Shown here: positions 4,590 through 31,539 of the stretch, one piece after another
Layout: every line of letters begins with the position of its first letter
Numbering within the stretch: position 1 is the stretch's first letter
Source: Colwellia sp. MB3u-45
GTDB lineage: Bacteria > Pseudomonadota > Gammaproteobacteria > Enterobacterales > Alteromonadaceae
Direction: 5' to 3'
Assembly: GCF_014077005.1 (NCBI RefSeq)
Contig: NZ_JACGVC010000033.1
Coordinates: forward strand, 124,001 to 188,000
DNA length: 64,000 bases
Made by a program: the position numbers and the translations under genes
Notes under the pieces: generated by a model
Databases searched by the model: none
Told to the model about the DNA's origin: nothing
What the model saw: the letters and a program-made list of their open reading frames with translations, nothing else

Positions 4590-4606
4590 GTTCCGCCAAG
4601 CGAAAC
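4590..4606. promoter_or_regulatory. Putative IclR-type operator in front of the TRAP operon
   Basis: GTTCCGC-CAA-GCGAAAC is a 7-3-7 palindrome with one mismatch, ending 30 bases before the dctP start codon. Four more copies of the same design lie upstream of the acyl-CoA ligase, the 480-residue permease and the acyl-CoA dehydrogenase/TonB divergon. Assignment to the IclR protein at 8714-9514 is inference from co-location. Confidence 0.65.
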
Positions 4607-4635
4607 GCAGGATATTATTTTGAAGAGTCATCACA

Positions 4636-5700
4636 ATGAATAAGATTAGCAAATTTTTCAAAGTAGCCACATTCACAGCCGCTGCTTTGAGTGCAATTCC
4701 TGCGGTTGCAGCAACTGTGCTCACTTATGGTGAACCTGGGCCAAACCGAGGCGCCCGTGCAGGTGCCACTAAATGGTTTGCACAGGAAGTTGACAAGCGC
4801 TCTGGTGGTGATTTAAAAATTGATATTATGTGGGGCGGCGCCTTATTTAAATCAAATGCCTCACGAGAATCTATTGCTGCTGGCGTGGTTGATATGGGCA
4901 CCATTATCCCAGATTACTTTCCTAAAGAAATGGTTTCTGCTTCACTGACTAACTTGCCCTTTGAAAATTTAGATCCCTGGGTAGGACTAAAAGCGAACTA
5001 TGACCACATGCAATCGCCTGAAGTGATACACAGCTTGGCTGAACAAAATTTAGCCTTCGTCACTTCGTACATGCTTTCTAGCGTTATTATCTTATGCAAA
5101 GGCGACGCTGTTCGTTCAATAGATGATATAAGAAATAAAAAAATACGTGGCGTCGGTACCTTCGGGAAAATATTTGGCGACTTAGGCGCAAACTTGGTTA
5201 GCATGAGTATTTATAAGGCTTATCAAGGACTAGGTAACGGTTTACTTGATTGTAGTCAAGGTTATATGAACGCCACCATCGCCCTGAAACAACATGAAGC
5301 GGCAGACAGTTTAACCAAACTCAATTGGGGGATTTATACCGGATTGGGCATGTATATTAATAAAAAGTCACTAACAAAATTGAGCCTCTCTCAGCGTAAA
5401 GTGTTAGATGAAGTCGGCGCTGACTTTATCAACCATATTGGTCAAAATGTAGTGAAAGCTGACAATAAAGCAGAGCGATTATTAACCCAAGGGATTAATG
5501 GCCACAAATTGGAAATTATTAATCTCCCTCCTGAAGATTCTGCGAAATTATATTTAGCCAGCCAATCTCACATTAGTAAATGGCAAAATGAAGCCAATAA
5601 AAGTGACCTTGATGGCAAGGCCATGGTTGAAAACTATAAAGCACTACTCACTAAATACAGCCAAGAACGCGATCTAAAAGGCTACCCTTGGACACGTTAA
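4636..5700 (+). CDS. TRAP transporter substrate-binding protein (DctP family)
   Basis: The 354-residue protein starts with a clear signal peptide (residues 1-26, ending VPAVAA-like AVAATV) and then shows the DctP fold pattern: early GARAGATKWFAQEVDKRSGG, a middle IDDIRNKKIRGVGTFG segment, which in the family contains the arginine that binds the substrate carboxylate, and MYINKKSLTKLS. It should capture a carboxylic acid in the periplasm and hand it to the DctQ/DctM permease encoded just downstream. A putative operator palindrome ends 30 bases before the start codon, so expression probably responds to the pathway's inducer. The ligand is not predictable from sequence; the genomic setting suggests the acid that is CoA-activated by the ligase at 19020-20870. 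Confidence 0.9.
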   Translation: MNKISKFFKVATFTAAALSAIPAVAATVLTYGEPGPNRGARAGATKWFAQEVDKRSGGDLKIDIMWGGALFKSNASRESIAAGVVDMGTIIPDYFPKEMVSASLTNLPFENLDPWVGLKANYDHMQSPEVIHSLAEQNLAFVTSYMLSSVIILCKGDAVRSIDDIRNKKIRGVGTFGKIFGDLGANLVSMSIYKAYQGLGNGLLDCSQGYMNATIALKQHEAADSLTKLNWGIYTGLGMYINKKSLTKLSLSQRKVLDEVGADFINHIGQNVVKADNKAERLLTQGINGHKLEIINLPPEDSAKLYLASQSHISKWQNEANKSDLDGKAMVENYKALLTKYSQERDLKGYPWTR

Positions 5701-5834
5701 TTTAATTACATCTGTTTCATTAATAAGCTGATGAACTTTATACACAATAAAAATGGCCAAATATAAGGCCTTTATTTTAAACTGTATAAATATTCACAAC
5801 GAAGTGAGATAGGTACTACATAGAGTTTATTATT

Positions 5835-6365
5835 ATGTTGAAAAAAATGGAACAGGGAGCATTGATTGTCGCTGGGGTATGTATTGTCACTCTCGGACTC
5901 ATGATCACTCTAACGGTAGTGACGCGTAACCTTTTTGGCTGGGGCGTTACTGATGATGTTGTTATCGTTCGAGAACTCATGGTAGGTGCTGTTTTTCTAC
6001 CATTAGCATATGTCACCGCAGATTATAGTCACATTACTATAGAGTTCTTATTTAAACGCTTGGGTAAACACAGCAAATTATGGTTGCTTGCCATTGGCTC
6101 TTTCATCAGTTTATTAATATTAATGCCACTTGCCTTCGCCGCTTGGAAAGGTTTTTTTCATGCGGCCAGCAGTGGTGCCTATTTTTTTAGCGAGTTAGAC
6201 CTACCTGAATGGCCGGGGAGATTGGCCTTTTTCGTTGGAGCTGCACTCTTTATTATCCGTTTATTAGTGATTTTTATTGCTGATTTTCGAGCCGCTATTT
6301 CTGGTAATACTGAACATCTTGTGCAGCGCTCTGACGCTGCATACAATACAACTGAAGAGGATTAA
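5835..6365 (+). CDS. TRAP transporter small permease (DctQ family)
   Basis: A 176-residue membrane protein with four hydrophobic segments (about residues 10-30, 45-65, 85-105, 130-150), the normal build of the DctQ subunit. The family signature appears as the conserved arginine-containing TVVTRNLFG after helix 1 and ADYSHITIEF after helix 2. It lies 134 bases after dctP and its stop is 3 bases before the dctM start, so the two permease genes are tightly coupled. It stabilises the large permease and is part of the sodium-driven uptake complex in the inner membrane. Confidence 0.88.
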   Translation: MLKKMEQGALIVAGVCIVTLGLMITLTVVTRNLFGWGVTDDVVIVRELMVGAVFLPLAYVTADYSHITIEFLFKRLGKHSKLWLLAIGSFISLLILMPLAFAAWKGFFHAASSGAYFFSELDLPEWPGRLAFFVGAALFIIRLLVIFIADFRAAISGNTEHLVQRSDAAYNTTEED

Positions 6366-6368
6366 TCT

Positions 6369-7709
6369 GTGGATCCATTGATGCTTGGGCTAGTCGGGTT
6401 TGCCTGTACCTTGCTTTTACTTATGTTCCGTGTGCCAATCGCCTTCAGTTTGGCTGGTGTATCATCGGTATTTATCTTTTTATTTTTTGCCATGCGCTCT
6501 GGTGGTTTTGATATTGAATCAGCTGTAGCACCGACACTGACCATGATTTCATCCAATGCGTTTGACTTGGTGCATTCTTATGATCTGAGTATGATACCGC
6601 TATTCGTGCTGTTAGGTCATATCGCCTTCCATACCGGTATCACTACTGATATATATCATGCGGCACGCGTTTGGCTAAAACGCTTACCTGGCGGTGTGGC
6701 TATGGCCTCTGTTTTTGGCTGTGGTGGCTTCTCCGCCATTACCGGCTCCAGCATAGCTTGCGCGTCGGCTATGGGTAAAATCTGCGTGCCAGAAATGTTA
6801 CGTATGGGTTATGATAAGCGCCTAGCAACTTCTACCGTCGCTGTTGGCGGCACGCTAGGTTCGCTGATCCCGCCCAGTGTGCTATTTATTGTTTACGGTA
6901 TTTTTACCGAAATGTCTGTCAGCCGCCTGTTCTTGGCAGGTGTCATCCCAGGTCTAATATCACTAGTCGGTTTTTTAGTGGTGATCTACATCTGGGTAAA
7001 GCGTAATCCCAGTGATGCGCCCGCCGATACCACCCTACTGATAAAGGGAGACCGCCGCAAAGCCGCCATAAGATGTTGGCCCGCTGTGTTACTTTTTACC
7101 ATTATTATTGGCGGTATTTATGGTGGTTTATTCACCGCGACCGAAGCCGCAGCGATCAGCGCATTTTCGGTGATTATCATAGGGTCATTGCAAAAACGTC
7201 TTAATTGGCAGCAATTTATGCAATCAATTAAAGAAACCTGTACGCAAACCACGTCTATCTTCTTTATCGCCGCTGGCGCAAAAATATTTGTCGGCTTTGT
7301 TGCGCTAACCGGTATGGCGCCGGCACTGGTCGGCCTTATCGAAGCTGCCGATGTTTCTTTATGGCTATTGCTGATAATGATCGCAGGGGTATATTTTCTC
7401 CTGGGCATGTTTCTTGACCCGCTAGGTATTATGGTACTTACCTTACCTTTTCTAATCCCTATGGTAGAAGGTTATGGCTTAGACTTAATTTGGTTTGGCG
7501 TAGTGATAATAAAGTTGCTTGAAATAAGCTTGATCACCCCGCCGGTAGGATTAAACGTTTTTGTTATCGCCAGTGTCACTAAACCTTCAGTCGCGGTATA
7601 TGACATTTTTATGGGCGTGACAAGATTTTTGGTGATGGACATCTTGGTACTGGTGGCGATTATCGCCTTCCCTATCCTATCCTTGCTATTGCCTAATCTT
7701 ATGATGTAA
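6369..7709 (+). CDS. TRAP transporter large permease (DctM family)
   Basis: The 446-residue, roughly 12-helix protein is the transport subunit. Typical DctM features include AITGSSIACASAMG near residue 125, the following SLIPPSVLFIVYG, and the late LGMFLDPLGIMVLTLPF with ITPPVGLNVFV. The start is GTG at 6369, supported by GAGG eight bases upstream at the end of the dctQ gene. Together with the genes at 4636 and 5835 this completes a TRAP uptake system for an organic acid. A bulged 14-bp hairpin at 7750-7783 follows. Substrate unknown; regulated with the beta-oxidation genes if the shared palindrome at 4590 is functional. Confidence 0.92.
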   Translation: MDPLMLGLVGFACTLLLLMFRVPIAFSLAGVSSVFIFLFFAMRSGGFDIESAVAPTLTMISSNAFDLVHSYDLSMIPLFVLLGHIAFHTGITTDIYHAARVWLKRLPGGVAMASVFGCGGFSAITGSSIACASAMGKICVPEMLRMGYDKRLATSTVAVGGTLGSLIPPSVLFIVYGIFTEMSVSRLFLAGVIPGLISLVGFLVVIYIWVKRNPSDAPADTTLLIKGDRRKAAIRCWPAVLLFTIIIGGIYGGLFTATEAAAISAFSVIIIGSLQKRLNWQQFMQSIKETCTQTTSIFFIAAGAKIFVGFVALTGMAPALVGLIEAADVSLWLLLIMIAGVYFLLGMFLDPLGIMVLTLPFLIPMVEGYGLDLIWFGVVIIKLLEISLITPPVGLNVFVIASVTKPSVAVYDIFMGVTRFLVMDILVLVAIIAFPILSLLLPNLMM

Positions 7710-7749
7710 CACTTATTATTCGCACTTTGGCCAATATATTAAAGACGAA

Positions 7750-7783
7750 AGCGAACATACTAGGTTACTAGCTTATGTTCGCT
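7750..7783 (+). terminator. Hairpin after the TRAP operon
   Basis: Arms AGCGAACATA (7750-7759) and TATGTTCGCT (7774-7783) plus an inner CTAG/CTAG pair form a 14-bp stem with a small bulge. It starts 41 bases past the dctM stop. No T-run follows. The rest of the 308-base convergent gap to the DoxX gene holds no gene. Confidence 0.5.
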
Positions 7784-8017
7784 GTTCAAATATTAAAACA
7801 TTAAAATATTGAAAAATAGGTACATCAGATTGTATTTACCATTTCAGCATAACCCTTTTCAACGGGTGTTCACGTAGAGGCAATATCACCAGATAAAATA
7901 GCGGGTTAGGTCTATTAGCGCTAACTGACAGGGGTGTTCTTAGGCATATAACAGCAACGACAAAGGCCGATTTTCAGCCAAGTAATACCCATATATTACG
8001 TGAGCTGCTCGGCCTTG

Positions 8018-8404
8018 TTATTTATTTTCACCTTTGTGCTGAATTCTTTCTGGTGCAATTGCCCACCATACAAACCAAATAAATAATAATTGCATGGGTA
8101 GGCGAAGATATAAAAAGAACACTGAAATATCGTGATATTTTTCTGGCTGCAAAGCCATGTTTATATTAGCCGGATAAACAGCAACAATTAAGGCAATTAA
8201 CCCATAGCCCGCTAACAAACGAGTTTTAGGCACCAAAAGGCCTATCGCACCCAAAACTTCAAATACACCACTGATGAGAACAAGTTCTTTGTGATAAGGC
8301 AAATAATCTGGCATCGCCATTATAAAAAAGTCAGCCGAAATAAAATGGCCGATACCGCCGATAAGAAAGAACAAGGCAATAATTAAAAGTGGCATGCGAG
8401 GCAT
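8018..8404 (-). CDS. DoxX-like small membrane protein
   Basis: A 128-residue protein with four predicted membrane helices. The pattern LIGGIGHFISADFFIMAMPDYLP near the N-terminus followed by LVLISGVFEVLGAIGLL is characteristic of the DoxX-like/MauE-type group. A ribosome site (GGAG, eight bases before the ATG at 8404) supports the start. The function of such proteins is poorly known; some are linked to redox or sulfur metabolism. It is a single gene between the TRAP operon and the IclR regulator and may have nothing to do with the pathway. Confidence 0.75.
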   Translation of the reverse strand: MPRMPLLIIALFFLIGGIGHFISADFFIMAMPDYLPYHKELVLISGVFEVLGAIGLLVPKTRLLAGYGLIALIVAVYPANINMALQPEKYHDISVFFLYLRLPMQLLFIWFVWWAIAPERIQHKGENK

Positions 8405-8624
8405 CAGTTATTCTCCGTATTCATTTTTCCAAAGCTCAAATCAAGGCGATTAATAGTTTACTTAAAGCTAAAGTGAAGCCGAGCGAAGTAAACGCTTAGC
8501 ACTTTGCTTTAATTATTTTTTATGCGGCTGTTTTTACCCATGACTTTGCTATCGATATTGTATTGCTATCAAGATGGTATTTCATTGACATTGTATTTCA
8601 TTAACATAACTACCTGACACATAG

Positions 8625-8658
8625 CAAAAAGCCTTTGCAGTAAACAAAGGCTTTTTAG
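8625..8658 (-). terminator. Rho-independent terminator of the IclR gene
   Basis: Arms 8626-8637 and 8645-8656 (AAAAAGCCTTTG and complement) form a 12-bp stem, with T-runs on both strands. It lies about 55 bases after the IclR stop. It could also block readthrough toward the regulator from the other strand. Nothing else is seen in the 309-base gap 8405-8713. Confidence 0.85.
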
Positions 8659-8713
8659 CATTCAATCATGTCAAACACACCATCATGTCAAAGGATGAAA
8701 CTAAGATATAATC

Positions 8714-9514
8714 TTAAAATTGAATTAACGTGGCTTCAATATTACGCACCATGCTTTTTAATTGCGGCGCAACTTCACCCGCCAAGAATTCTTTCGACAA
8801 TCTAAATGCCGGACCACCCGCATTGAATACGTAGATTTGACCTTGAGTAAGTTTTAACGGTACGGCAATAGCATTGGTATCTCGCTCCCAATCGCCCCAA
8901 GAATGGCAATAACCAAATTCTTTATAGCTTTCCAACGCTTGATCAATACCCACTTTAACCGCGTCAAACTTATCACCAAGCTTTTCTTTGAAATGTCGTA
9001 AAAAGAAGTCACGTTCTTCTTCTGATAATGCCACTAAATAAGCTCGCCCTGCCGCCGTAGTGGCCATAGGTATTTTATCGCCAATATCTTTTTTAAAGGT
9101 AACAATATCTTTTGGCGCGCAATGATCAACATAAATCATGTCTAGTCGGTCGCGGTCTGCGAGGCCTATTGATGTACCTGTTTCAATTGACAGCTCTTTC
9201 ATTTGGGGGTTCGCCACTTGGCGAATGCCAAGGTTAGAAACAAAGGCATAACCCAATGCCAACACACCAGCGCCAAGCTGGTATTTTTCTAAGCGCTTTG
9301 AATAAGTTAGGTAGCCTAGGCTGGTCAAGGTATAGGTTAAGCGAGATATACTTGATTTGGGTAATCCGGTTCGTTGAGCAATTTCCTGGTTACCAAGAAA
9401 TCCGTCTCCGGGGTTAAATGCTCGTAATATATCTAACCCTCTGGCAAGCGCTTCGACAAACTTACGATCTACTTCCCCATTTATTTCTCTTGGCATACCA
9501 GTTAATGTATTCAT
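8714..9514 (-). CDS. IclR-family transcriptional regulator
   Basis: The 266-residue protein has the winged helix-turn-helix at about residues 24-85 (LARGLDILRAF, NQEIAQRTGLPKSSISRL, YTLTSLGYL) and the IclR effector domain behind it, with GTSIGLADRDRLDMIYVDH and TTAAGRAYL. The C-terminal INAxGGPAFRLS-like NAGGPAFRLS is standard for the family. IclR proteins usually control one catabolic pathway and respond to its substrate or an acyl-CoA or aromatic-acid intermediate. It is the only regulator inside the catabolic island, and five similar palindromes stand in front of the island's operons, so it is the best candidate to bind them. No copy of the palindrome is seen in front of the regulator gene itself. 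A terminator at 8625-8658 ends it. Confidence 0.9.
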   Translation of the reverse strand: MNTLTGMPREINGEVDRKFVEALARGLDILRAFNPGDGFLGNQEIAQRTGLPKSSISRLTYTLTSLGYLTYSKRLEKYQLGAGVLALGYAFVSNLGIRQVANPQMKELSIETGTSIGLADRDRLDMIYVDHCAPKDIVTFKKDIGDKIPMATTAAGRAYLVALSEEERDFFLRHFKEKLGDKFDAVKVGIDQALESYKEFGYCHSWGDWERDTNAIAVPLKLTQGQIYVFNAGGPAFRLSKEFLAGEVAPQLKSMVRNIEATLIQF

Positions 9515-10202
9515 TTTGAGCTACTCAGTTGTTAATCACACTAGACGTAGTGACTTATTGTAACTGTCAATACTTTTCAAATAATGGCGCTATAATCTCA
9601 TTTTTTGCTCTAAAAATAAAGATGATAGATAGCTTTAAGAATAAATTTATAGACTAATAGCAGCAAGTTAGCTTAATAGCTTTAAACATATACTGTCACA
9701 TATCGCCTTATTTTATTTGTTATTGAGATGTAAACACTGAAAATCGACAAACAAAATCAACACTAAAGTAGATTTTAACGCTTAGCAAACCCACGGCTTA
9801 ATAAGAAAAAAACAGATAAAAGCGCTGACCTTTTTTATCAGGTTAGGCACAGTTATTGGTAAATACGATAGCAAGCTTGTACCCAGCGTAATGAATTTAT
9901 TATCCATATTCAGACATATTTTGACTAAAAAACTTCAAGTTATAGCAGATGATTTTTGCTGGCTTTGTTGATGTGATTGTTGTTGATGGCTTTGATAGTG
10001 ATAGTTTTGACACAGAAGATATTAGCTGACAAGTATGCCAACTAAAATACCAGCGAAAGTAAATCTAAAGCATTTTTGCTAAATCAATTAAAAGCCAGCA
10101 TCATTTAACCTGCTTGGCTTTTAATTCATGGCATTAGCATTAAGCTCAACATAAATCTCACCATTGAGCTCACTGGTGAGTTCTCCATTGAGCTATCAGT
10201 AC
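9515..10202. other. Gene-free stretch between iclR and etfA
   Basis: About 690 bases without a supported gene. It contains the upstream region of the IclR gene and the end of the etf transcript. A 26-codon frame from about 9950 is acidic and has no family resemblance. Short CTCAATGG direct repeats occur just past the etfA stop. No palindrome of the shared operator type was found. Confidence 0.5.
10088..10124 (-). terminator. Terminator of the etfBA transcript
   Basis: Arms TTAAAAGCCA (10088-10097) and TGGCTTTTAA (10115-10124) form a 10-bp stem with a 17-base loop. On the minus strand the second arm ends in a T-run. It lies about 80 bases past the etfA stop. Confidence 0.6.
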
Positions 10203-11129
10203 TTACAAAGCACTTTCTAATTCAGGTAAGGCTTCAAATAGATCCGCTACCAGACCGTAGTCAGCCACTTGGAAAATAGGCGCTTCTGGGTCTTTGTTAA
10301 TCGCGACAATAACTTTTGAGTCTTTCATACCGGCAAGATGTTGAATAGCTCCCGAAATACCGACCGCTATGTATAAATCTGGCGCGACAATTTTACCCGT
10401 TTGCCCTACTTGCATGTCGTTAGGCACAAAGCCCGCGTCGACAGCCGCGCGTGATGCGCCAATGCCAGCCCCTAACTTATCAGCAATGCCGTCTAATAAG
10501 GTAAAGTTATCACCATTTTGCATGCCACGACCACCGGAAATAATCACCCTTGCGGCACCTAAATCAGGACGTGCTGAAACCGTTAACTCGTCACTAACAT
10601 GGCTTGAAATACCGGCGTCTTTAACCTTATCTAATAAGATAATTTCTGCAGCGCCATCAGTGGCAACCGCATCAAATCCGGTTGAACGCACGGTGATCAC
10701 TTTTTTAGCATCTAAACTTTGTACGGTTGCAATAGCATTGCCGGCATAGATAGGACGCACAAAGGTGTCAGCACTTTCAACCGCAACAATATCTGAAATT
10801 TGAGCCACATCTAATAAAGCGGCAACGCGAGGCATAAAGTTTTTGCCTGTGGTTAATGCGGTTGCCATAACGACACTGTAATCAGCCGCTAATTCAGTCA
10901 CTAATAAACTGATATTTTCTGCCAGTTGATGCTCGTACACCACATTATCAGCCACCAGTACCTTAGCAACTCCATTAACTTTTGCCGCTTGTTCTGCAAC
11001 ACTTTGACAGTGATGCCCTGCAACTAAAATAGTGATGTCTCCGCCTATTTGTTGAGCCGCCGCTACTGTTTTTAAAGTATCAGCTTTTAACGCGCTGTTG
11101 TCGTGTTCTGCGTAAACTAAAATACTCAT
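10203..11129 (-). CDS. etfA: Electron transfer flavoprotein subunit alpha
   Basis: The 308-residue protein is of standard length. The C-terminal FAD-binding domain is clear: [50 protein letters not shown] and [15 protein letters not shown]. With the beta subunit it accepts electrons from acyl-CoA dehydrogenases and passes them to ETF-ubiquinone oxidoreductase at the membrane. Its start overlaps the etfB stop by four bases, which couples their translation. Placement inside an island with three acyl-CoA dehydrogenases suggests a dedicated ETF; whether the genome has a second pair cannot be seen here. Confidence 0.96.
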
Positions 11130-11878
11130 GAGATCACCTTGGCTTCATTTCTTAACTTTTCAACTAATGCATCAATTGATTCAACCATAATGCCGGCTTG
11201 ACGCTCTTTCGGAGGAGAAACCTTTAATAACTGAGTACGTGGGGTTAAATCAATACCAAAATCACTCGCCAACTTCACCACTAATGGCTTACGTTTAGCT
11301 TTCATAATATTAGGTAAAGAGGCGTAACGGGGTTCGTTTAAACGTAAGTCCGTAGTGACAATAGCGGGTAAGTTTAGCGCCACAGTTTGCAAGCCGCTGT
11401 CGACTTCACGTGTGACCTTAATTTTGTCGCCTTCAACCTTAACTTGGGAGGCGAAAGTACCTTGGGCAAAACCGGTTAGTGCGCCCAGCATTTGGCCAGT
11501 TTGGTTGTTATCGCTGTCGATAGACTGCTTACCTAAGATAACTAATTGAGGCTGCTCTTCTTCAACAATTTTTTGTAATAACTTGGCAATATGTAACGCG
11601 TCGAGCGTTAGCTCGGTATCGATATGAATCGCACGATCAGCGCCTAAAGCCAGTGCGGTTCGCAGTTGTTCTTGACAACTTTTCTGACCAATAGAAACCA
11701 CAATAACTTCAGTGGCTGTGCCCGCTTCTTTAAGACGAACAGCTTCTTCTACCGCAATTTCACAAAACGGGTTAAGGGCCATCTTAACGTTGGCTAAATC
11801 AACGTTTGAGTTATCTGGTTTAACACGCACTTTGACGTTGTAGTCGATGACACGTTTGATGGGGACTAATACTTTCAT
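11126..11878 (-). CDS. etfB: Electron transfer flavoprotein subunit beta
   Basis: The 250-residue protein begins [20 protein letters not shown] and carries the beta-subunit signature, here [40 protein letters not shown] split over about residues 158-200, plus the AMP-binding [11 protein letters not shown] region. It pairs with the alpha subunit encoded immediately downstream. GAGGAG nine bases before the ATG is a strong ribosome site. The genes upstream on the same strand (thioesterases, isomerase, flavoprotein) are separated by a 279-base gap containing a dispersed repeat, so co-transcription with them is uncertain. Confidence 0.96.
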
Positions 11879-12157: not shown

Positions 12158-12613
12158 TTAAATTGATGCACCACCACGGGCTAACTCTTTTTCTAACAAG
12201 GTTAATGCCGTGCTAGGAAGGTTAATCTTACTTTGCAGTTCATGGCTAAAAGAAACAATAATGCTTTCACTTTTAGCGGCAACCTTTTGATGGTTTTCAC
12301 TATAAATAATTTGACTTAAAGTAAACCTATCCTTGCTTATTTGCTCAACTTTGGTCGCAACAATAAGGTTATCAGGATAAGTTACTGGAAACTTAAACTT
12401 ACAATCGATATAAGCCACAACAAAGCCGAGTTTGTCTTCGCCAAGTGCGGCTCTAATATGACTATCAGTAAAAAAATTCACCCGGCCTTCTTCACAGTAA
12501 CGAAAATAATTAGTGTTATTAACATGGCCTAACATATCAATATCGCCCCATCTAACCGGATGTTTTATTTGATGAGGATAATGTTGTAATGGTTCGTTCA
12601 AAAAATTCTCCAC
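12158..12613 (-). CDS. Acyl-CoA thioesterase, 4-hydroxybenzoyl-CoA type (YbgC/FadM-like)
   Basis: The 151-residue single hotdog domain has the family motif VRWGDIDMLGHVNNTNYFRY at about residues 20-39, where the aspartate of D-x-x-GHVNN is the catalytic residue, followed by EEGRV. Such proteins cleave short or aromatic acyl-CoAs. It is the third member of a minus-strand gene run NMO-like, ECI-like, PaaI-like, this gene. In a catabolic setting it may rescue CoA from dead-end intermediates. The substrate cannot be told from sequence. The gap to the next gene upstream is 72 bases. Confidence 0.85.
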   Translation of the reverse strand: MENFLNEPLQHYPHQIKHPVRWGDIDMLGHVNNTNYFRYCEEGRVNFFTDSHIRAALGEDKLGFVVAYIDCKFKFPVTYPDNLIVATKVEQISKDRFTLSQIIYSENHQKVAAKSESIIVSFSHELQSKINLPSTALTLLEKELARGGASI

Positions 12614-12685
12614 TTGTTTGCTGGTCTGCTGGGGCTCTGACTAACGCCCAACCAGGTTTAACAGTATAATTGGCTGAAAATTAAC

Positions 12686-13084
12686 TCACGCTTTTCGATA
12701 ACGAAATACGCCTTGCCCTGAAGCAATGATATTGTCAAAAGAGTCGAATACCTCGGCCGAGCCATAATAGATATTTCGCCCCGACGCGGTCACTTTGCCA
12801 ATAGCATAAAGGCTGTTGGACTGCGCTTGTCCTAAGTAATTTATGTTTAAAGATAAAGTTAATGCTTTTCTATAATCAAGCGGATCGTCACTATGGGCGC
12901 CCGATAGTGCCGTGGCGGCATCTAATAAGGTCGAAATAAAGCCACCGTGGGGGATCCCTGAACGGTTAAGATGTTCAGGCTTAAGCTCAGCACTAATTTT
13001 AATATGATTTTTATGCCATTCTTCGACCACAAAACCTAAATGGTTATTGAATGCCGGCATGGTTTTATTTGCCCAAGGTTTCAT
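12686..13084 (-). CDS. PaaI-family hotdog thioesterase
   Basis: A 132-residue hotdog protein with the PaaI pattern NRSGIPHGGFISTLLDAAT at about residues 41-59; the HGG turn and the acidic residue at the start of the central helix form the active site. The family hydrolyses acyl-CoA thioesters, often of ring or hydroxylated acids. It starts 9 bases after the stop of the enoyl-CoA isomerase-like gene, so they are clearly one operon. It is the second of three hotdog proteins in the island (others at 12158 and 25887). Confidence 0.85.
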   Translation of the reverse strand: MKPWANKTMPAFNNHLGFVVEEWHKNHIKISAELKPEHLNRSGIPHGGFISTLLDAATALSGAHSDDPLDYRKALTLSLNINYLGQAQSNSLYAIGKVTASGRNIYYGSAEVFDSFDNIIASGQGVFRYRKA

Positions 13085-13093
13085 TGTAAACTC

Positions 13094-13828
13094 TTATTTT
13101 TTTGTTCTGGCGGCTATAGATTCTTCACTTTGCAGTAGCTGTGCAAAGATCACTAACTCATTTTTAATCACATCGTGCAGTATTGCCTGCCCAGAGGCTT
13201 TCAGAAGTTTTTTGCTAGCACGCAAAGCATTTTGCGGTTTCAGCGCTAAGGCTTTGGCTTTACTTAAGGCAAAATCAAATACCTCAGACTTGTCTAATTG
13301 TTGATTAACTATGCCGATATTAATCGCCGTTTCAGTATTAAAAGCCTCGCCAAGCATTAATAACTCAGCGGCTTTACGATGGCCAGCTAACTGAGGAATA
13401 AGCAGGCTTGAACCACCTTCAGGGCAAACACCTAAATCAACAAATGGCATTTTAAAATAAGTCTCTGAGGCGTAAACCAAATCAAAATGCAGCAACATAG
13501 TTACGCCTATACCTACGGCAACACCAGATACTGCACCAACAATCGGCTTAGGATAGTTATACAGCTCATACAATAAAGTGGCGGCTGGTGAGGGTTCATT
13601 GGCATCACGATTATTGAAATCGTTTAAATCATTACCGGCTGAAAAAGCCTCTTGTGTGCCATGTATCAGTACCACTTTGATACTTTCATCAGTCACACTG
13701 TCTTTTAGGGCTTTAGCCATAGCGGCATACATTACACTGCTTAAGGCATTTTTTTTCTCGGGGCGATTAATCGCTAAGTGTAAAACACCACTGTCCTGAT
13801 GAATTAAGATGTGTTCTTGAGCTTTCAT
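13094..13828 (-). CDS. Enoyl-CoA hydratase/isomerase family protein, ECI-like
   Basis: A 244-residue crotonase-fold protein. The CoA oxyanion-hole motifs are FSAGNDLNDF near residues 62-71 and VSGVAVGIGVTM near 100-111. The first hydratase glutamate is replaced, while DLGVCPEGGSS keeps Glu137, the position used by PECI/ECI-type delta3-delta2-enoyl-CoA isomerases. This makes isomerisation of unsaturated acyl-CoAs more likely than hydration, since the bifunctional enzyme at 15683 supplies a full hydratase. It follows the flavoprotein gene by 11 bases and precedes the PaaI gene by 9. Role inferred from residues; not certain. Confidence 0.82.
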   Translation of the reverse strand: MKAQEHILIHQDSGVLHLAINRPEKKNALSSVMYAAMAKALKDSVTDESIKVVLIHGTQEAFSAGNDLNDFNNRDANEPSPAATLLYELYNYPKPIVGAVSGVAVGIGVTMLLHFDLVYASETYFKMPFVDLGVCPEGGSSLLIPQLAGHRKAAELLMLGEAFNTETAINIGIVNQQLDKSEVFDFALSKAKALALKPQNALRASKKLLKASGQAILHDVIKNELVIFAQLLQSEESIAARTKK

Positions 13829-13839
13829 ATGAAGAGTAC

Positions 13840-14817
13840 CTATTTTTTTTGTAGACTATTTAAACGCGATAGCGCCACATCGTATTCTGTTTTAAAGCGT
13901 TCCACGACAGTAGCAACAGTCGCAATATCGGTAATACTGCCCAAGCCTTGTCCTGCACCCCAAATGTCTTTCCAAGCCTTAGTTTTACTGCCCCCTGATG
14001 AGCCAAACTTCATTTTACTTTTATCACCTTCTTCTAAATCATCAGGATTTAAGCCGGCATTAGTAATACTGGGTTTAAGATAATTGCCGTGAACACCGGT
14101 AAATAACGAACTATAAACAATATCTTTCGCGCTATGCTCAACTAACATTTTTTTGTATGCTTGATCGGCATTAGCTTCTTTAGTGGCAATAAAAGACGTG
14201 CCGATATAAGCAAAATCTGCCCCCAAAGCTTGCGCTGACAATATAGAAGCGCCATTAGCAATAGCGCCTGATAAGGCAATAGGGCCATCAAAAATTTGTT
14301 TAATTTCACTCACTAAAGCAAAAGGGCTTAAGGTACCTGCATGGCCACCTGCGCCAGCACACACTAATACTAAGCCATCAACTCCGGCTTCTATGGCCTT
14401 TTCAGCATGGCGAATATTAATAATATCGTGAAAAATAATGCCGCCATAAGCTTGAATACGTTGCACTAATTTAGGATCTAACGCGCGTAAGCTGGTAATA
14501 ATCACCGGTACTTTATATTCAATACAGGTATTTATATCAGCCTCTAAGCGGTCATTACTCTTATGCACAATTAAATTAACCGCATAAGGCGCAACGATGG
14601 CGTTAGGGTTCGCAACTTGATAGCTATCTAACTCAGTTTTAATGGTGGTGAGCCATTCAGCCAACAATGATTGTGGACGGGCATTAAGCGCTGGAAAAGA
14701 GCCAACAATACCGGTTTTACACTCTGCGATAACCAATTCTGGTCCCGAGACGATAAACATAGGAGCGCTGATAACAGGCAAAGATAGTTTGTTTTGTAAT
14801 GTTTTTGGAATTGGCAT
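13840..14817 (-). CDS. NMO-family flavoprotein, possibly NADH:quinone reductase
   Basis: The 325-residue FMN-binding TIM-barrel protein has PVISAPMFIVSGPELVIAEC at residues 14-33, GIVGSFPALNARPQSLLAEW, and the phosphate-binding GAGGHAGTLSPFALV and GALGADFAYIGTSFIA-like segments. Annotation pipelines call such proteins nitronate monooxygenase (2-nitropropane dioxygenase). The PALNARP segment and length also resemble PA1024 of Pseudomonas, which is reported as an NADH:quinone reductase rather than a nitronate enzyme. It is the first gene of a four-gene minus-strand operon with acyl-CoA enzymes, so a redox role within the acyl-CoA pathway is plausible. Confidence 0.82.
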   Translation of the reverse strand: MPIPKTLQNKLSLPVISAPMFIVSGPELVIAECKTGIVGSFPALNARPQSLLAEWLTTIKTELDSYQVANPNAIVAPYAVNLIVHKSNDRLEADINTCIEYKVPVIITSLRALDPKLVQRIQAYGGIIFHDIINIRHAEKAIEAGVDGLVLVCAGAGGHAGTLSPFALVSEIKQIFDGPIALSGAIANGASILSAQALGADFAYIGTSFIATKEANADQAYKKMLVEHSAKDIVYSSLFTGVHGNYLKPSITNAGLNPDDLEEGDKSKMKFGSSGGSKTKAWKDIWGAGQGLGSITDIATVATVVERFKTEYDVALSRLNSLQKK

Positions 14818-14876
14818 CTTGATCCCCTAAAAAGTATTTGTTGTGATGAAAAAAATGAGCTGTGCTAAACACTGGC

Positions 14877-15670: not shown

Positions 15671-15682
15671 CTTATAACTTTT

Positions 15683-22811: not shown

Positions 22812-22979
22812 TTAAAAAGGGATGTAAACACTATTTATTATATTTTTCATAGTTTTTGCTGAGCTTGTAATTTTTAACAACGTGCACTGGTCTGGTAAAT
22901 AATATTATGATCTTAACCACAAAGTTTTTCGTATTTTTAAATTAGCTTTAAATTGCGATATAACCATAAAGGAATACAA

Positions 22980-23969
22980 ATGAAGCATAACCTCATTACC
23001 TCAAGCCTTACTGCTTTTTTTCTCCTGGCAGGCGCAACATCGACTGCAAGTGCAAGTGACAAAAAAATTGAAGCAAATGATCTCGTTGAAATGTTCGAAA
23101 AGCTAGGTGGTAAACATCCAGGCTACAGAAAGGCACATGCTAAAGGTCTATGTGCCTCTGGCACTTTTGTGCCCGCGCCCAATAAGTACTTTACAGGAGC
23201 GGCCTTGTTATCAAACGGTGAATTACCCGTATCTATGCGCTTTTCAGTAGGTGGTGCTAGCCCAAGTAGTGATGAGAAAGCCCCTGGTACGCGTGGTATG
23301 GGTATGCAAATTCAACTACCTGATGGCGCTTTGCATACTTTTACCGGTAACAACTTTCCCGTATTTGCCGGCAAAAATCCAGAAATTTTTCATGGCTTTT
23401 TATCGACTTTACTTCCTGATGAAAATGGTAAATCTGACCCAGCTAAAACCATGGCATTTATCCAGCAGAACCCTAGCTTACAAGCTCACGTTATGTGGAA
23501 TAAAAACGCTAAAACAGCCGCGTCATTCGCCAATACTGAGTTTTTTGGTTTGCACACCTTTTACTTTGACCAAGCCAATGAACAACAAACTAAGTTTCGC
23601 TGGAATATTAAGCCAAACTTAGGGGTAAAAACACTAGAAAAAGCTGAGGCTGATAGCATGCCGACTGAGTTTTTAGCTAATACTTTTGCACAACAACTTA
23701 AAGATGAAACCGTTAGTTTTACCATTATGGCGAGCTTAGGTGAAGCACAAGATAGCGACATTGACCCCTCACAACAGTGGCCTAGTGAACGCCCTCAAGT
23801 AACGCTTGGCACGGTAACCGTTAAAACAAGTGGTGGCGATGCCTGTAATAATACTAACTTTGATCCTAATGTGATGTCGGCAGGCTTTACACCCAGCGCT
23901 GACCCTATATTAAGAATGCGTTCACCGGCTTATGCTATTTCTTTCGGTAAAAGATTGAGTGGTCAATAA
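22980..23969 (+). CDS. Catalase-family peroxidase, exported
   Basis: Starting at the ATG at 22980, which is preceded by AAAGGAATA, the protein has 329 residues and a signal peptide ending ATSTASAS. It is a short catalase-fold protein of the SrpA type. The distal catalytic His is in YRKAHAKGLCASGTF near residue 42, the RFSVGGASP loop follows, and the proximal heme tyrosine is in RMRSPAYAISFG near the C-terminus. It probably consumes peroxides in the periplasm. It sits between the permease and the old-yellow-enzyme gene, and acyl-CoA and flavin oxidations nearby could generate peroxide. A GC-rich terminator follows. Confidence 0.88.
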   Translation: MKHNLITSSLTAFFLLAGATSTASASDKKIEANDLVEMFEKLGGKHPGYRKAHAKGLCASGTFVPAPNKYFTGAALLSNGELPVSMRFSVGGASPSSDEKAPGTRGMGMQIQLPDGALHTFTGNNFPVFAGKNPEIFHGFLSTLLPDENGKSDPAKTMAFIQQNPSLQAHVMWNKNAKTAASFANTEFFGLHTFYFDQANEQQTKFRWNIKPNLGVKTLEKAEADSMPTEFLANTFAQQLKDETVSFTIMASLGEAQDSDIDPSQQWPSERPQVTLGTVTVKTSGGDACNNTNFDPNVMSAGFTPSADPILRMRSPAYAISFGKRLSGQ

Positions 23970-24380
23970 ATAATTTTCTCAGTGTTAAAAGCCTTTATTA
24001 CAAAATCGCTGTACTGAAAAATTAATGAGGGGGTAGTTTACGCTACCCCCTTTTACTCTTGAAATTCAATACGTAAAACTCAAGAGCAAAGGATGATAGC
24101 CGCTTGTAGATAAATTAAAAACAAGCTATAAAAAAGCCAAAATGTATCTTTTGAAATTGAGTGAAAATTGAGAGGGAATTAAAAGTGACTTAGTCAATTT
24201 AACATTAGATTTCAATACGAATACTACATTTACATATAACTACAAGTTATTACAAAATATAAAAACAATGTTTTTATATTATATGAGACAATCATATTAA
24301 TGACTGAGATCTACATCTAGTGACCTATTAACGTGACTTATGAAATAGGTTTCTACATAAATGAATAAGGAAACAATAAC
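23970..24380. other. Gap between the peroxidase and the ene-reductase
   Basis: About 410 bases holding the peroxidase terminator at 24029-24050 and the upstream region of the ene-reductase. It is very AT-rich after 24100. No gene, repeat family or operator palindrome was seen. Confidence 0.5.
24029..24054 (+). terminator. Terminator after the peroxidase gene
   Basis: GGGGGTAG (24029-24036) and CTACCCCC (24043-24050) form a GC-rich 8-bp stem with a 6-base loop, followed by TTTT. It lies 60 bases after the stop codon. Confidence 0.8.
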
Positions 24381-25472
24381 GTGTCTACACCTACAATTTT
24401 TTCGACAACAACATTTGCTAAGAACCCCCTCAAGAATCGTTTTGTTCTTGCCCCGTTAACTCGCGGTCGTGCAGGTCCAACTCGCGTCCCTAATGAATTA
24501 ATGGCAGAGTATTATCAGCAGCGCAGTACTGCTGGCTTAGTGATTGCAGAAGCGACCGCTATATCTGAAGAAGGCAATGGTTGGGTAAACTCACCTGGTA
24601 TTTATACCCAAGAAATGGTCGAGGGTTGGCAGACAATTACTGAGCGTGTACATCAGCAAGGCAGTCAAATTATTCTTCAACTTTGGCATACCGGACGAGC
24701 ATCTCATAGTGACTTTCATGACGGTGAATTGCCGCTATCAGCTTCAGCATTAAAAATTAATGGCGATCAAATTCATACCCCTGAAGCTAAAAAAGACTAT
24801 GAAGTGCCACGCGCTATGACAGTGCAAGACATCAGAAGAACAGTGGAAGACTTCCGCAAAGCAGCTGAAAATGCAAAGGCAGCAGGCTTTGATGGCGTTG
24901 AAGTTCATGCCGCAAACGGCTATCTGATTAATCAGTTTCTTGATGCTAGCACCAATCAGCGTGACGATGAGTATGGCGGTAGCATTGAAAATCGTACGCG
25001 CTTTTTAAACGAAATACTTGAAGCGGTATTAACGGTATGGCCTGCGGAAAATGTTGGCAGCAGAATTTCGCCCAATGGCGTATTCAATGATATGGGCTGT
25101 GATGACTACAGAGAATTATATACTCATGTTATACAGCGTTTTACTCATTACCAGCTTGGTTTTGTGCATATTATGGATGGCTTAGCTTTTGGTTTTCACG
25201 AACGTGGAGAACCAATGACGCTGGAAGATTTCAGAAGTTTATATCATGGACTTATTATCGGTAATTGTGGCTACGACCAGGCAAAAGCTGAAGCGGTAAT
25301 AGGTTCAGAAAAAGCGGATCTGGTGGCTTTTGGTCGCCCCTATATTTCTAACCCAGACTTACCTCAGCGTATGCTTAATAACTGGCCATTGGCGCCATCT
25401 GACGATGCGAGTAATTGGTATGGTGGCGGCGCTAAAGGTTATACTGATTATGAAACCTACAAGTCCGCTTAG
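24381..25472 (+). CDS. Old-yellow-enzyme family alkene reductase (NemA-like)
   Basis: A 363-residue FMN TIM-barrel enzyme. It begins with the family pattern KNRFVLAPLTRGRAG, has LQLWHTGRASH near residue 107, the substrate-binding pair in VEVHAANGYLINQFLD (His/Asn of the NemA and morphinone reductase group), and RISPNGVFNDMG. Such enzymes reduce activated double bonds with NAD(P)H. The start used is GTG at 24381, preceded by AAGGAAAC. It could act on an unsaturated ring or enone intermediate, or serve in detoxification. It has its own promoter region and a terminator at 25579-25611, with no shared operator, so membership in the regulon is open. Confidence 0.9.
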   Translation: MSTPTIFSTTTFAKNPLKNRFVLAPLTRGRAGPTRVPNELMAEYYQQRSTAGLVIAEATAISEEGNGWVNSPGIYTQEMVEGWQTITERVHQQGSQIILQLWHTGRASHSDFHDGELPLSASALKINGDQIHTPEAKKDYEVPRAMTVQDIRRTVEDFRKAAENAKAAGFDGVEVHAANGYLINQFLDASTNQRDDEYGGSIENRTRFLNEILEAVLTVWPAENVGSRISPNGVFNDMGCDDYRELYTHVIQRFTHYQLGFVHIMDGLAFGFHERGEPMTLEDFRSLYHGLIIGNCGYDQAKAEAVIGSEKADLVAFGRPYISNPDLPQRMLNNWPLAPSDDASNWYGGGAKGYTDYETYKSA

Positions 25473-28185: not shown

Positions 28186-30999
28186 TTATTCTCCAAATTT
28201 ATGCACAACACTTAATTTAAAAGTACGACCTAAAGGATTATGTGTGAACGGGTCATAGTTTAAATCTAAACGAGCAAAAGAAGGGTCTTCATCCGTTAAG
28301 TTACTCACGGTTAGGTTCAATTTGGTCTGATCTTCATTAAAGCGATAGTTATAACTTAAATCAAACTGTACTTGGCTATCAATGACTTGACCTCGAGTGT
28401 TAGTAGTAAATAACTCCTCTCGTTCATCTTTATAATCACCAACATAATAAGTAGATAAGCTAACATTATGATTGTCAAAATCAAAACTATTGATCATAGT
28501 CGCTTTATACTTGGGTATTGGACGATTCGAGTTAGTCTTATTTAGAAAACCAGCCGCGTCAAAAGTTTCAGACAAACCATCGGCACTTACTTCGTATTCA
28601 GCCGTATAGGTTCCATTCATGTTTAAGGTCCAGTAGTCGGTAACATTTAACCGTAATTGCACATCAACACCACTGGTTTTAACATCAGAACCATTGATTA
28701 TATTAGTTTCAATTCGCTCTACTGTCTTTGCGTTACCAGGCTCTGTCCATCGCACTTGGTCAACATAAGGTTGCTTACCGGCAACGGCAGCTGATAATAC
28801 CGCATTATAATTTTCAACAATAATAGGGTCGCTTAAATCAAATGACCAAAAATCAACTGTTGCGAATAAACGGTCGCCCCAAAATTCACCAATAATGCCA
28901 AAGTTTAACGCAACCGCTGATTCAGGCGCCAAAGCATTATTACCTTGAGTATCTACGGCTTTAAAAGCACCCGCAGCCCCCACATAAGAAAGGGTTGTAT
29001 TAGTCCCTTCTAATTGATTTAGTGTTGGACCTCTAAATGTAGTACTGGCAGAGCCACGTAATGAAAAATTATCATTTATGGTATATTGCGCTGATACTTT
29101 TGGATCTATGGTATTACCGACTTCTCCGCCGTAATCCTCATATCGCAAAGCAACTTGCATATTTAAATCGTCTGATACCGGTAACGCTAGTTCACCAAAT
29201 ACGGCAAAAATACTTTGAGATGAATCTTGATTTAGCTCACCACTACGAAAATGAAAAACACCAGTAGGGTTTGCACAATCTGTTTCTCCAAGCACTGGAC
29301 ATGGGTTTATTGCTAAATTACCTAAGTCATTAACTTCATTAGTAAAAGACTCATTTCGATACTGAGCGCCTACGGCAAACTCAACAATGCCACCGTCCAA
29401 TTCAAAACCTGTGTCTCCCGACACTAAGCCATCAAGCACAAATAATTCTGTGGCTTTTTGTGAAGTTCTTGTGCCTGAAACATAATCTAATACTTCTTGA
29501 GAGTTGGCTAATGCCGGATTGAAATTTGGATTAGTGACGCCATTAGAAGCCGATGTTTCAATGCCGTTAGAAAATGGATTAAAGTATAAACAGCCATTGG
29601 CACCTGGCACACCGGCTTCCATATCACAATTATCGCCGCCATAACCTAATAACGCATTCTTTAATGGCACAATTAATGTATCTGGGTTACTGGCATAATC
29701 AAGTTTTGAATTTGAATAAGCAAAACCAGTTTCCCAGTTATAGCCATTATCAAATTTACCTTCTAGATCTGCAGCAATACGGTAAGTTTTATAGTCTAGA
29801 CCACCTTCACTTGAGGGTCCCTCAACACCTACAGTACGACCAATATAAGCGACACGGTCTAACGACGGATGAGGAGCACTAGCAAATTCTGGATTGCCAG
29901 CCACTAATGCTTGCCATGCAGGATGATAAGTTGGTACATAACGGTCGGAAAAATCAACGAGCTTTTGTGGTGGGTAAGATGGTGAGCCATAAGTGGTAGG
30001 CACCTCAGTCTCTGAGTACAAAACTTCAACATGCAGATTAACGCCACTTTTAAAGTCGTGAGTTAATTCGCTAAATATTTTCAGATGTGTATCACCGTCA
30101 TTTAACGCTGAGAATGGCGTATATTGTAATTTACATGTACCGGCTATAGTTCCCCCTAATAATTCACAGCCAGGATCCATCAAGTATTTAGGTTGTGAAT
30201 TATCACCGAGCCAAGCCGCATTAAATATCGATGGTGGATTACCGATTGATGACCAACCCCCTTGTGGGTTAGTGGCAAAGTCTTGTACCGCCCAATCTTT
30301 ATCTCTGGTGTTGATGGTATTGGTTTTATCATAACTAACAGAAGTTACCCAATGAGTATCATTATTGCCTAGTCCCCAGATTACGCCTAAGCCGTAATCG
30401 CCGTCACTATCTTGTAAGCTTTTATAGTCAGCTTTTACTTCTAGGCCTTCGAAATCACTTCGGGTTGAAAAGTTAACTACACCTGCAATGGCATCAGAGC
30501 CATATATAGCGGCTGCACCTTCTTTTAACATGTCGACTCGTTTAACCGCCATAGAAGGAATGTCTTGGGTGTTAACATAAAGCATTTGTTGATCAACAAT
30601 AGCGTAAGGGTTGAAGGTATGCCTTTTGCCGTTAATTAACACTAAGGTACGGCCTGCTCCTAGCCCTCTTAAATTGATATTGGAAGTACCTTCAGTACCA
30701 TTAGAACCATATTGATTTGAGTTACCTTGAATACCAGAGCTGATTGACAATTTCTGAGTCAATTCAACAATAGAGGGAGAGCCAATTTTTTCTAAATCAG
30801 CTCGACTAATCGTTTGCACAGGTGCTGAGGTTTCTAGTGCCGAACCTTTTAAATGAGAACCAATAACTTGTATTTTCTCAATATCATTTTTATTTGTCTC
30901 TTTTACTTCTTCAGCATACAAAGCACTACTTGCCATAATTCCAAGCGCTGCGCTAATAGCGATAGTTATGGAGTTTCGTTTTAGTCTGGTATTTTTCAT
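28186..30999 (-). CDS. TonB-dependent outer-membrane receptor
   Basis: The 937-residue protein has a signal peptide (about residues 1-29, ending SSALYA), a TonB box-like region (DIEKIQVIGSHL), a plug domain with NINLRGLGAGRTLVLINGKRH and LKEGAAAIYGSDAIAGVVNF, and a long 22-strand type barrel ending NPLGRTFKLSVVHKFGE with the terminal aromatic typical of outer-membrane proteins. It belongs to the large plug group common in Alteromonadales that includes sugar, lipid and siderophore receptors. It is divergent to three acyl-CoA dehydrogenase genes, and two palindromes of the shared operator type lie in the gap, so it likely imports the hydrophobic or large precursor of the pathway's acid. The ligand is unknown. 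Confidence 0.92.
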   Translation of the reverse strand: MKNTRLKRNSITIAISAALGIMASSALYAEEVKETNKNDIEKIQVIGSHLKGSALETSAPVQTISRADLEKIGSPSIVELTQKLSISSGIQGNSNQYGSNGTEGTSNINLRGLGAGRTLVLINGKRHTFNPYAIVDQQMLYVNTQDIPSMAVKRVDMLKEGAAAIYGSDAIAGVVNFSTRSDFEGLEVKADYKSLQDSDGDYGLGVIWGLGNNDTHWVTSVSYDKTNTINTRDKDWAVQDFATNPQGGWSSIGNPPSIFNAAWLGDNSQPKYLMDPGCELLGGTIAGTCKLQYTPFSALNDGDTHLKIFSELTHDFKSGVNLHVEVLYSETEVPTTYGSPSYPPQKLVDFSDRYVPTYHPAWQALVAGNPEFASAPHPSLDRVAYIGRTVGVEGPSSEGGLDYKTYRIAADLEGKFDNGYNWETGFAYSNSKLDYASNPDTLIVPLKNALLGYGGDNCDMEAGVPGANGCLYFNPFSNGIETSASNGVTNPNFNPALANSQEVLDYVSGTRTSQKATELFVLDGLVSGDTGFELDGGIVEFAVGAQYRNESFTNEVNDLGNLAINPCPVLGETDCANPTGVFHFRSGELNQDSSQSIFAVFGELALPVSDDLNMQVALRYEDYGGEVGNTIDPKVSAQYTINDNFSLRGSASTTFRGPTLNQLEGTNTTLSYVGAAGAFKAVDTQGNNALAPESAVALNFGIIGEFWGDRLFATVDFWSFDLSDPIIVENYNAVLSAAVAGKQPYVDQVRWTEPGNAKTVERIETNIINGSDVKTSGVDVQLRLNVTDYWTLNMNGTYTAEYEVSADGLSETFDAAGFLNKTNSNRPIPKYKATMINSFDFDNHNVSLSTYYVGDYKDEREELFTTNTRGQVIDSQVQFDLSYNYRFNEDQTKLNLTVSNLTDEDPSFARLDLNYDPFTHNPLGRTFKLSVVHKFGE

Positions 31000-31321
31000 C
31001 GGTTTCCCCTGTTATTCATTTTATTTTATTTTATTTTGATTATAATATTTTCAATTAATGACTGTTTTTCCTCCAACAGCTATTAATTGTTCTGCTTACT
31101 GCACTAAATCACCCTTAAGGTTTTGCTTGCATAGTCATGATAATTCACCCATTCAATCGTTATAAAGGCTCAGTAAAAAAGCCTATACCGCACTGCATTG
31201 ACCATATTCTGCGTTACAAAATTACTTATTAACCTGACTGAATAAGGCCAATACCTAAGCCAGTCAAATCAAAAACATCCTAAAAAAATACTGCATTCAG
31301 AAATGAATTTAACTGATACTA

Positions 31322-31338
31322 ATTCTGCGTAGCGGAAT
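31322..31338. promoter_or_regulatory. Putative IclR-type operator (distal) in the TonB/acyl-CoA dehydrogenase gap
   Basis: ATTCTGC-GTA-GCGGAAT is a 7-3-7 palindrome with one mismatch, 323 bases before the TonB receptor start and 230 before the acyl-CoA dehydrogenase start. Confidence 0.65.
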
Positions 31339-31522
31339 ATGCAAGTACTTTATTTGGACAGTAATTCCACTGACCTCAATTTAACCTACATTAACAAAAA
31401 TAATATAAAGCTAAAAATAAAACTAATAACATTACACTAATGAGAATCTAGTAAGAGAATATTTAGTCCGCGAATATAATGTAATTAGCTGCAATTACAT
31501 CTTGATATTTACTTAACCCTAT

Positions 31523-31539
31523 GTTCCACTGTGCGGAAC
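31523..31539. promoter_or_regulatory. Putative IclR-type operator (proximal) before the acyl-CoA dehydrogenases
   Basis: GTTCCAC-TGT-GCGGAAC is a 7-3-7 palindrome with one mismatch that ends 29 bases before the start codon, almost the same distance as the TRAP operon site. This position would suit blocking of a promoter. Confidence 0.7.

Follow-up and report, generated by a model that had tools for sequence, protein, structure and literature searches.

The window analysed here is a stretch of 64,000 nucleotides from the genome of Colwellia sp. MB3u-45 (59 contigs, 4.17 Mb), in which a catabolic island, spanning 4.6 to 35 kb, contains five palindromes of 17 bp and of one common design, together with a gene for a regulator of the IclR family (8714–9514, minus strand). 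From comparison of the DNA with that of relatives, it is highly probable that these palindromes serve as operators of the IclR protein.

The island opens on the plus strand with a TRAP transporter, comprising the solute-binding protein DctP (4636–5700; Pfam PF03480, and NCBIfam NF037995 over its cut-off), the small permease DctQ (5835–6365; PF04290) and the large permease DctM (6369–7709; PF06808, and TIGR00786 over its cut-off). There follow, on the minus strand, the IclR gene, the genes for the alpha and beta subunits of an electron-transfer flavoprotein (ETF; 10203–11878; PF01012 and PF00766), those for two hotdog thioesterases, an enoyl-coenzyme A (CoA) hydratase and a nitronate monooxygenase-like flavoprotein (12158–14817), and then an operon encoding a FadJ-like multifunctional beta-oxidation enzyme (15683–17782, from family matches), an enzyme of the 3-oxoadipyl-CoA thiolase family (17807–19042; NF006001, 625.2 bits against a cut-off of 622) and an acyl-CoA synthetase, or CoA ligase (19020–20870; NF005714, 638.3 bits against a cut-off of 632). 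Divergent from the CoA ligase, on the plus strand, is the gene for a membrane protein of 480 amino acids (21369–22811), which the preliminary description of this DNA called a permease; the protein is hydrophobic, and neither Pfam nor NCBIfam gives a match. Further along are a TonB-dependent receptor (28186–30999, minus strand; PF00593 and PF07715) and, divergent from it, three acyl-CoA dehydrogenases (31568–35087, plus strand). The second and third of these form a pair resembling PimC and PimD, with scores of 465.4 of 623.85 bits for TIGR03204 and 375.3 of 652.7 bits for TIGR03203, and, since both models score under their cut-offs, the pair is not placed in the pimeloyl-CoA (Pim) pathway.

The five palindromes and their conservation

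The five sites share the core RTTCYGC-N3-GCRGAAY. Their sequences and their setting in gaps before pathway genes, all five being intergenic in a stretch (3901–31567) whose intergenic fraction is 0.225, are as the preliminary description gave them, as is its limit of two mismatches per palindrome (the arms differ at 1, 2, 2, 1 and 1 of seven positions at 4590, 20943, 21131, 31322 and 31523, respectively). The first (4590–4606) is a candidate two-box operator of the TRAP operon, centred 38 bp before the DctP ATG. The second (20943–20959) is the core of a putative operator of the CoA ligase–thiolase–FadJ operon, centred 81 bp before the ATG, and the third (21131–21147) is a second such site in the same divergent region, centred 230 bp upstream of the start codon of the membrane protein. 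The remaining two, both apparently two-box operators, lie between the TonB receptor and the acyl-CoA dehydrogenase genes, one on the receptor side (31322–31338, centred 331 bp from the receptor ATG) and the other preceding the acyl-CoA dehydrogenase genes (31523–31539, centred 37 bp before the ATG). The 29–30 bases to a start codon given previously for two of the sites hold at 4590, where there are 29, and are slightly too many at 31523, where there are 28.

With a symmetrised matrix the five sites score 20.0–22.1 and the next place in the window 13.2, in keeping with the earlier statement that no equal copy is found elsewhere in the window, the matrix having been built from the five sites themselves such that this scoring is circular. 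The remaining gaps scored (2290 to 35538) give at best 6.5, and in the gaps directly upstream of the ETF, thioesterase, hydratase, PEBP and flavin reductase genes there is no site. A scan for sigma-70-like promoters returned 0, 4 and 2 matches, the chance expectations being 0.9, 2.6 and 3.6; one of the matches brings a TATAAT to the border of site 21131.

Whether the family is a mere chance similarity, chosen by eye, must be considered at this point, and in this regard the window by itself does not prove the family. The core pattern with up to two mismatches matches the window 22 times (a count that takes each of the five sites on both strands) against a shuffle mean of 11.2, with 1 of 100 shuffles as high; a motif-agnostic search of the window for families of 7-3-7 palindromes, made with crude tests, finds nothing above shuffles, which weighs against the sites as a family. 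Across the genome 44 places lie within two mismatches of the core pattern. The six best are the five sites and one unlinked place (C46:149908), all of which precede genes, and ranks 7–9 (19.2, 17.8 and 17.7; C28, C49 and C52) all fall inside open reading frames (ORFs); no equal match was found scattered in coding DNA. At one mismatch or fewer the genome total is 8 against 7 for a reversed-pattern control, and the excess is therefore only local, five of the eight places being clustered in 0.65% of the genome (p ~6e-10, a post hoc value for a pattern drawn from the same sites). Since the agnostic tests are negative and the genome total is like that of the control, the case depends on the relatives. 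There, conservation in related genomes, in rearranged loci and at distant homologues already contradicts chance, which is hardly credible as an explanation.

Indeed, the sites are kept in relatives. In the DctP region, aligned over nine sequences, 12 of 14 arm columns are invariant against 35 of 223 other columns; the corresponding figures are 26 of 28 against 211 of 476 for the CoA ligase–membrane protein region (six sequences) and 26 of 28 against 212 of 544 for the TonB receptor–acyl-CoA dehydrogenase region (five sequences), flank invariance across these three window regions being 16–44%. At the DctP site of one relative, G018, both outer bases have changed jointly, from G..C to A..T. When promoters are counted, with the window included and over loci whose upstream DNA was in hand, a site precedes dctP in 11 of 12 loci (the exception is L066), the CoA ligase in 8 of 8 and the acyl-CoA dehydrogenase genes in 6 of 6, and the TonB receptor site is present in all 5 where the receptor was seen. 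The second, membrane-protein site is found in 6 of 8 loci, G018 and L066 having a single site between both genes. In G018 the operons are reordered with their sites still attached, and in L066 dctP lies downstream of fadJ without a site of its own; for G008 and L064, two relatives with the regulator, the stretches retrieved showed no TRAP genes. In other words, the arms are kept while the flanks drift, and the sites travel with their operons through rearrangement.

Other features of the island may be recorded here. The membrane protein gene adjoins the CoA ligase in all eight loci where the flank is visible; a structure model of the protein, made from two sequences, was discarded for its mean predicted local distance difference test score (pLDDT) of 38.5. 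The catalase-like and old yellow enzyme genes at 22953–25472, inside the island, are variable, the latter being seen, among the relatives fetched, in G008 only and neither being seen in G006. Within the run of catabolic genes, the 865-bp gap at 14818–15682 holds similar palindromes at 15205, 15404 and 15624, spaced by about 200 bp. The distance from etfA to iclR is ~6.7 kb in L056 (G008; 2548–9215) against ~0.7 kb in the window, and dctP in L050 (G010; 17716–18776) matches as two abutting pieces, such that a frameshift may break the gene.

A third half-site and a probable unlinked target

Two features are additions to the preliminary description, namely a third box at some of the sites and a probable sixth target away from the island. 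At the CoA ligase promoter a third half-site, GCAAAAT (20963–20969, minus strand), lies 3 bp from the 20943 core, and on the membrane-protein side another, GTAAAAT (21121–21127), lies 3 bp from the 21131 core. Four of ten sites in the window and nearer relatives have such a box, as do seven of the eight sites given to a spacer sweep from the loci of distant IclR homologues (described below), all at spacer 3; in the same orientation every other spacer between 0 and 30 occurs in at most one distant site, and in the opposite orientation none occurs in more than two. The third-box threshold of 2.5 was chosen after the first third-box scores had been seen, and empirical p-values, for which the A+T-rich window was the background, are not relied upon. 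All 13 zero-mismatch matches to the three-box pattern in seven genomes are at CoA ligase, membrane-protein or hydrolase promoters, the pattern having been derived from such promoter sites.

The hydrolase promoter is the unlinked place mentioned above. The site at C46:149908 is centred 71 bp before the ATG of an alpha/beta hydrolase gene, has a third half-site GCAATAC at spacer 3, and is followed by genes for the hydrolase, an acetolactate-synthase-like thiamine pyrophosphate (TPP) enzyme and an aldehyde dehydrogenase. This putative three-box operator (C46:149898–149924, which is L057:6899–6925) is kept in G008, where the palindrome remains and the flank has diverged: 14 of 14 arm columns are invariant against 262 of 476 others in the two sequences, and a site is present in both of the hydrolase promoters counted. 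A search for the full-length hydrolase orthologue itself recovered it from G008 (91%); the other 15 genomes gave none, with fragments in G012. The hydrolase–TPP enzyme–aldehyde dehydrogenase cluster is a probable sixth target.

The anatomy of the sites also bears on a reading in which they are not operators at all, the palindromes being instead hairpins that act in RNA or in the termination of transcription. Site 20943 does score as a terminator-like hairpin of six pairs (0.4 hairpins expected by chance), and one of five pairs extends over the end of site 31523 (0.2 expected). The stems are short, however, and the DctP region has none; the sites stand upstream of starts, four of the five between divergent genes. 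Moreover, their sequence is kept beyond what pairing alone would call for, and hairpins leave the third box unexplained, all of which makes this reading very improbable.

The IclR protein as candidate regulator

The product of 8714–9514 belongs to the IclR family, with PF09339 (the N-terminal helix-turn-helix) and PF01614 (the C-terminal effector domain) both above their gathering scores and 5whm_A as the best solved chain. Its best NCBIfam subfamily is PcaR/PcaU/PobR (TIGR02431), of which it is not a member, as its 126.7 bits fall under the cut-off of 284.75. The closest relatives (94–97%) are in Colwellia records, and those at 88–91% in records of Colwellia, Paraglaciecola and Glaciecola. 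Orthologues of the protein (at least 91%) and of the CoA ligase (at least 79%, sought at E≤1e-150) share the same seven of 60 genomes, the source genome included; relaxing the IclR threshold to E≤0.001 raises the matches to 22 of the 60, 15 of these by weaker homologues only. The seven regulator genomes contain 6–9 places within one mismatch of the core against 1–5 in ten near-complete congeners without the regulator (p=3e-4; p=0.05 for the reversed-pattern control; G007, 66% complete, was excluded), a comparison which partly restates the absence of the target genes in those congeners.

A wider and stronger comparison is afforded by ten distant loci, six of them, besides the window's own, from 369 genomes of the class (homologue at E≤1e-50) and four of them named loci, in which the IclR homologues are 35–52% identical. 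Seven sites scoring at least 17 occur in four of these loci, and nine scoring at least 15 in five, against ~2.8 summed from shuffles; at the higher threshold, 40 matrices with permuted half-columns gave 0.6 on average and never more than 4. The homologues at loci with a site of at least 15 are 42–52% identical. None of 46 control loci (260 kb) has a site of at least 17, the controls being 23 loci in relatives, each surrounding a weaker IclR homologue, 8 from Dormiibacterota and 15 that are hydrolase-like, on average shorter than the distant loci and many of them poorer in G+C. At L114 and L116 the site lies in the divergent gap beside the IclR gene, and likewise at L069 if the thiolase start follows the homology match.

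The distant loci share catabolic genes with the island. The dehydrogenase pair has homologues at L113 and L115, and a homologue of its large subunit lies at the margin of L118. Homologues of the first acyl-CoA dehydrogenase (61–71%) are present at L069, L114 and L116, and those of the thiolase at L069, L114 and L117; at L070 there are CoA ligases and a TRAP transporter of the TAXI type. Mangrovitalea sediminis (L069) has two IclR homologues (52% and 49%) near the thiolase and acyl-CoA dehydrogenases, in a vicinity that also includes a TPP enzyme and a gene resembling that of a succinate-glutarate CoA-transferase. Just 3' of the IclR genes of two alphaproteobacterial homologues is a weaker palindrome, TTTCCG-N5-CGGAAT (L071:10802 and L072:10822).

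The form of the sites is that expected of the family. The consensus of group-1 IclR operators, subgroup GTT-11-AAC, is given as GTTYCRYW3RYGRAAC (Suvorova and Gelfand 2021, PMC8222616), and by eye the core agrees with it, with a central W3 that is kept only loosely and some sites departing from it at single positions. As with the group-1 operators set out in the main text of that survey, the sites here are 17-bp palindromes with a 3-bp centre, some of them with a third box in alternating direction; a further likeness is that most sites there lie 20–80 bp before starts. The alternating three-box arrangement is reported there for 32 IclR groups and as a requirement of PcaU. Taken with the co-occurrence, the motif at distant homologues and the third half-site, this fit to the published consensus indicates that the IclR protein is very probably the regulator.

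Several observations weigh against that assignment or against the anatomy proposed for the sites. The gap upstream of the IclR gene (9515–10202) has no operator (best score 5.3) where three distant homologues have sites adjoining their IclR genes, and autoregulation is usual in the family (PMC8222616). Sites 21131 and 31322, at 230 and 331 bp, are far from the assigned start codons, and published site centres at −400 to −300 are very rare (PMC8222616). Five of the ten distant loci (L071, L072, L115, L117 and L118; 35–43% identity) have no site of at least 15, and one of the 46 controls, L078, has two such places. With regard to the third box, none occurs at spacer 3 at the DctP, TonB receptor or acyl-CoA dehydrogenase sites, nor at the ninth distant site (L070:7875, score 15.3), which was outside the sweep; of four one-mismatch matches to the three-box pattern one is at the expected promoters and three are elsewhere, and with two mismatches there is no excess over the control. 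Lastly, the hydrolase target is full-length in only two of the seven regulator genomes.

Some of these points would suit an alternative in which the sites belong to some other transcription factor, unlinked to them, with the IclR gene as a mere neighbour: the gene is without its own operator in the window, half of the distant loci are without a site, and the binding of the protein to the sites is something that we infer. The strong sites in four of ten distant IclR loci against none of 46 controls (five against one at the lower threshold) are difficult to reconcile with a mere neighbour, as are the positions beside the IclR gene at L114, L116 and, conditionally, L069. The motif, including its third box, is moreover of the IclR type, and the earlier claim that the IclR protein is the only regulator in the island is borne out among the ORFs scanned, a set that omits some on the opposite strand. 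An unlinked factor is accordingly improbable, and the IclR protein is retained as the regulator in what follows.

The proposed regulon and known systems

In the mechanism proposed, an IclR dimer would occupy the two inverted half-sites of RTTCYGC-N3-GCRGAAY, and at the CoA ligase, membrane-protein and hydrolase promoters the third half-site, 3 bp out, would leave room for another subunit or dimer, a mode of binding modelled on PcaU-like regulators. The substrate or its CoA thioester would bind the C-terminal domain, such that the operons are switched together and entry through the TonB receptor, TRAP uptake, CoA activation and the steps of the three acyl-CoA dehydrogenases, the hydratase/dehydrogenase and the thiolase are coordinated. 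Repression relieved by substrate is the working guess; activation is less probable but may be considered, because the IclR family includes both repressors and activators (PMC8222616). The earlier proposal of one regulon over 27 kb is thereby supported and its reach is even longer, since the acyl-CoA dehydrogenase genes continue to 35087, with the qualification that several island genes have no site of their own. For the ETF genes and the nitronate monooxygenase–hydratase–thioesterase genes, among these, expression within the regulon would need read-through or another promoter.

The substrate would be an organic acid, imported by the TRAP transporter and activated by the CoA ligase. The thiolase, narrowly over the 3-oxoadipyl-CoA cut-off, and the PimC/PimD-like pair together prompt the guess of a dicarboxylate or a ring-derived acid, which is plausible and may well prove wrong. 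The PDB entries matched by DctP, by the CoA ligase and by the acyl-CoA dehydrogenases do not settle what the substrate is. For the second acyl-CoA dehydrogenase the best of these is 4x28, which we take to be a steroid acyl-CoA dehydrogenase; a steroid would thus be a possible substrate, a reading not taken up here, as the island ORFs scanned include no gene for steroid ring cleavage. The pim genes (TIGR03203–TIGR03205) resemble the island in their paired large and small acyl-CoA dehydrogenases. They also come with a CoA ligase, a FadJ-like enzyme and a thiolase. The likeness stops at the scores of the Pim models on the island proteins, which are under their cut-offs.

Among characterised regulators, PcaU, PobR and PcaR form the nearest NCBIfam subfamily, and the Corynebacterium glutamicum PcaR site, GTTCGC-N3-GCGAAC, is close to the core (PMC8222616); unlike those systems, the island protein scores far under the subfamily cut-off and no protocatechuate-cleavage gene is found among the island ORFs scanned. 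The azeTSLR genes of Phycobacter, with AzeR, serve azelaic acid uptake and, like the island, place a TRAP transporter beside an IclR-type regulator, followed immediately by an acyl-CoA ligase and a thioesterase and then by beta-oxidation (PMC10945470). This likeness is one of gene content, and the passages of that paper drawn upon give no operator. PheR of Sphingobium (PMC13273656) is an IclR repressor that joins outer-membrane uptake with catabolism, as is proposed here; it differs in its core GCAACG site and in its substrate, phenanthrene, and the effect on TonB comes from transcriptomes. Two further papers concern the transcript of a Colwellia TRAP transporter in seawater exposed to oil (PMC7284936) and a Ralstonia IclR repressor, taken as PcaR, that limits growth on glutarate (PMC12543098).

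No published account of this regulon was found among the papers listed, as judged by titles and the beginnings of abstracts. In the main text of PMC8222616 the words TRAP, acyl-CoA and Colwellia are absent, although it does name DctPQM as a set that co-occurs, and the orthologous group may already stand in its supplementary tables. In a broader and rather doubtful proposal, the protein would represent an undescribed IclR orthologous group in several gammaproteobacterial lineages, controlling a modular regulon in which the activation enzymes have three-box operators and the uptake and acyl-CoA dehydrogenase genes have two-box ones; the response to one substrate would then be ordered or graded, and paired operators 174–201 bp apart in divergent regions would possibly be bridged by a tetramer.

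The regulon falls in a known class, that of IclR-controlled catabolic regulons, and it is the two putative operator classes that stand out most. For a cold-marine catabolic island, the analysis provides a regulator, an operator and a target set that are testable, and the proposed regulon links an orphan 480-amino-acid membrane protein, a TonB receptor and an unlinked hydrolase cluster to that island. Alternative dimerisation of IclR proteins is a matter for which, according to the main text of PMC8222616, experimental validation is still needed, and the presence of putative two-box and three-box operators in one regulon would offer a natural test of it.

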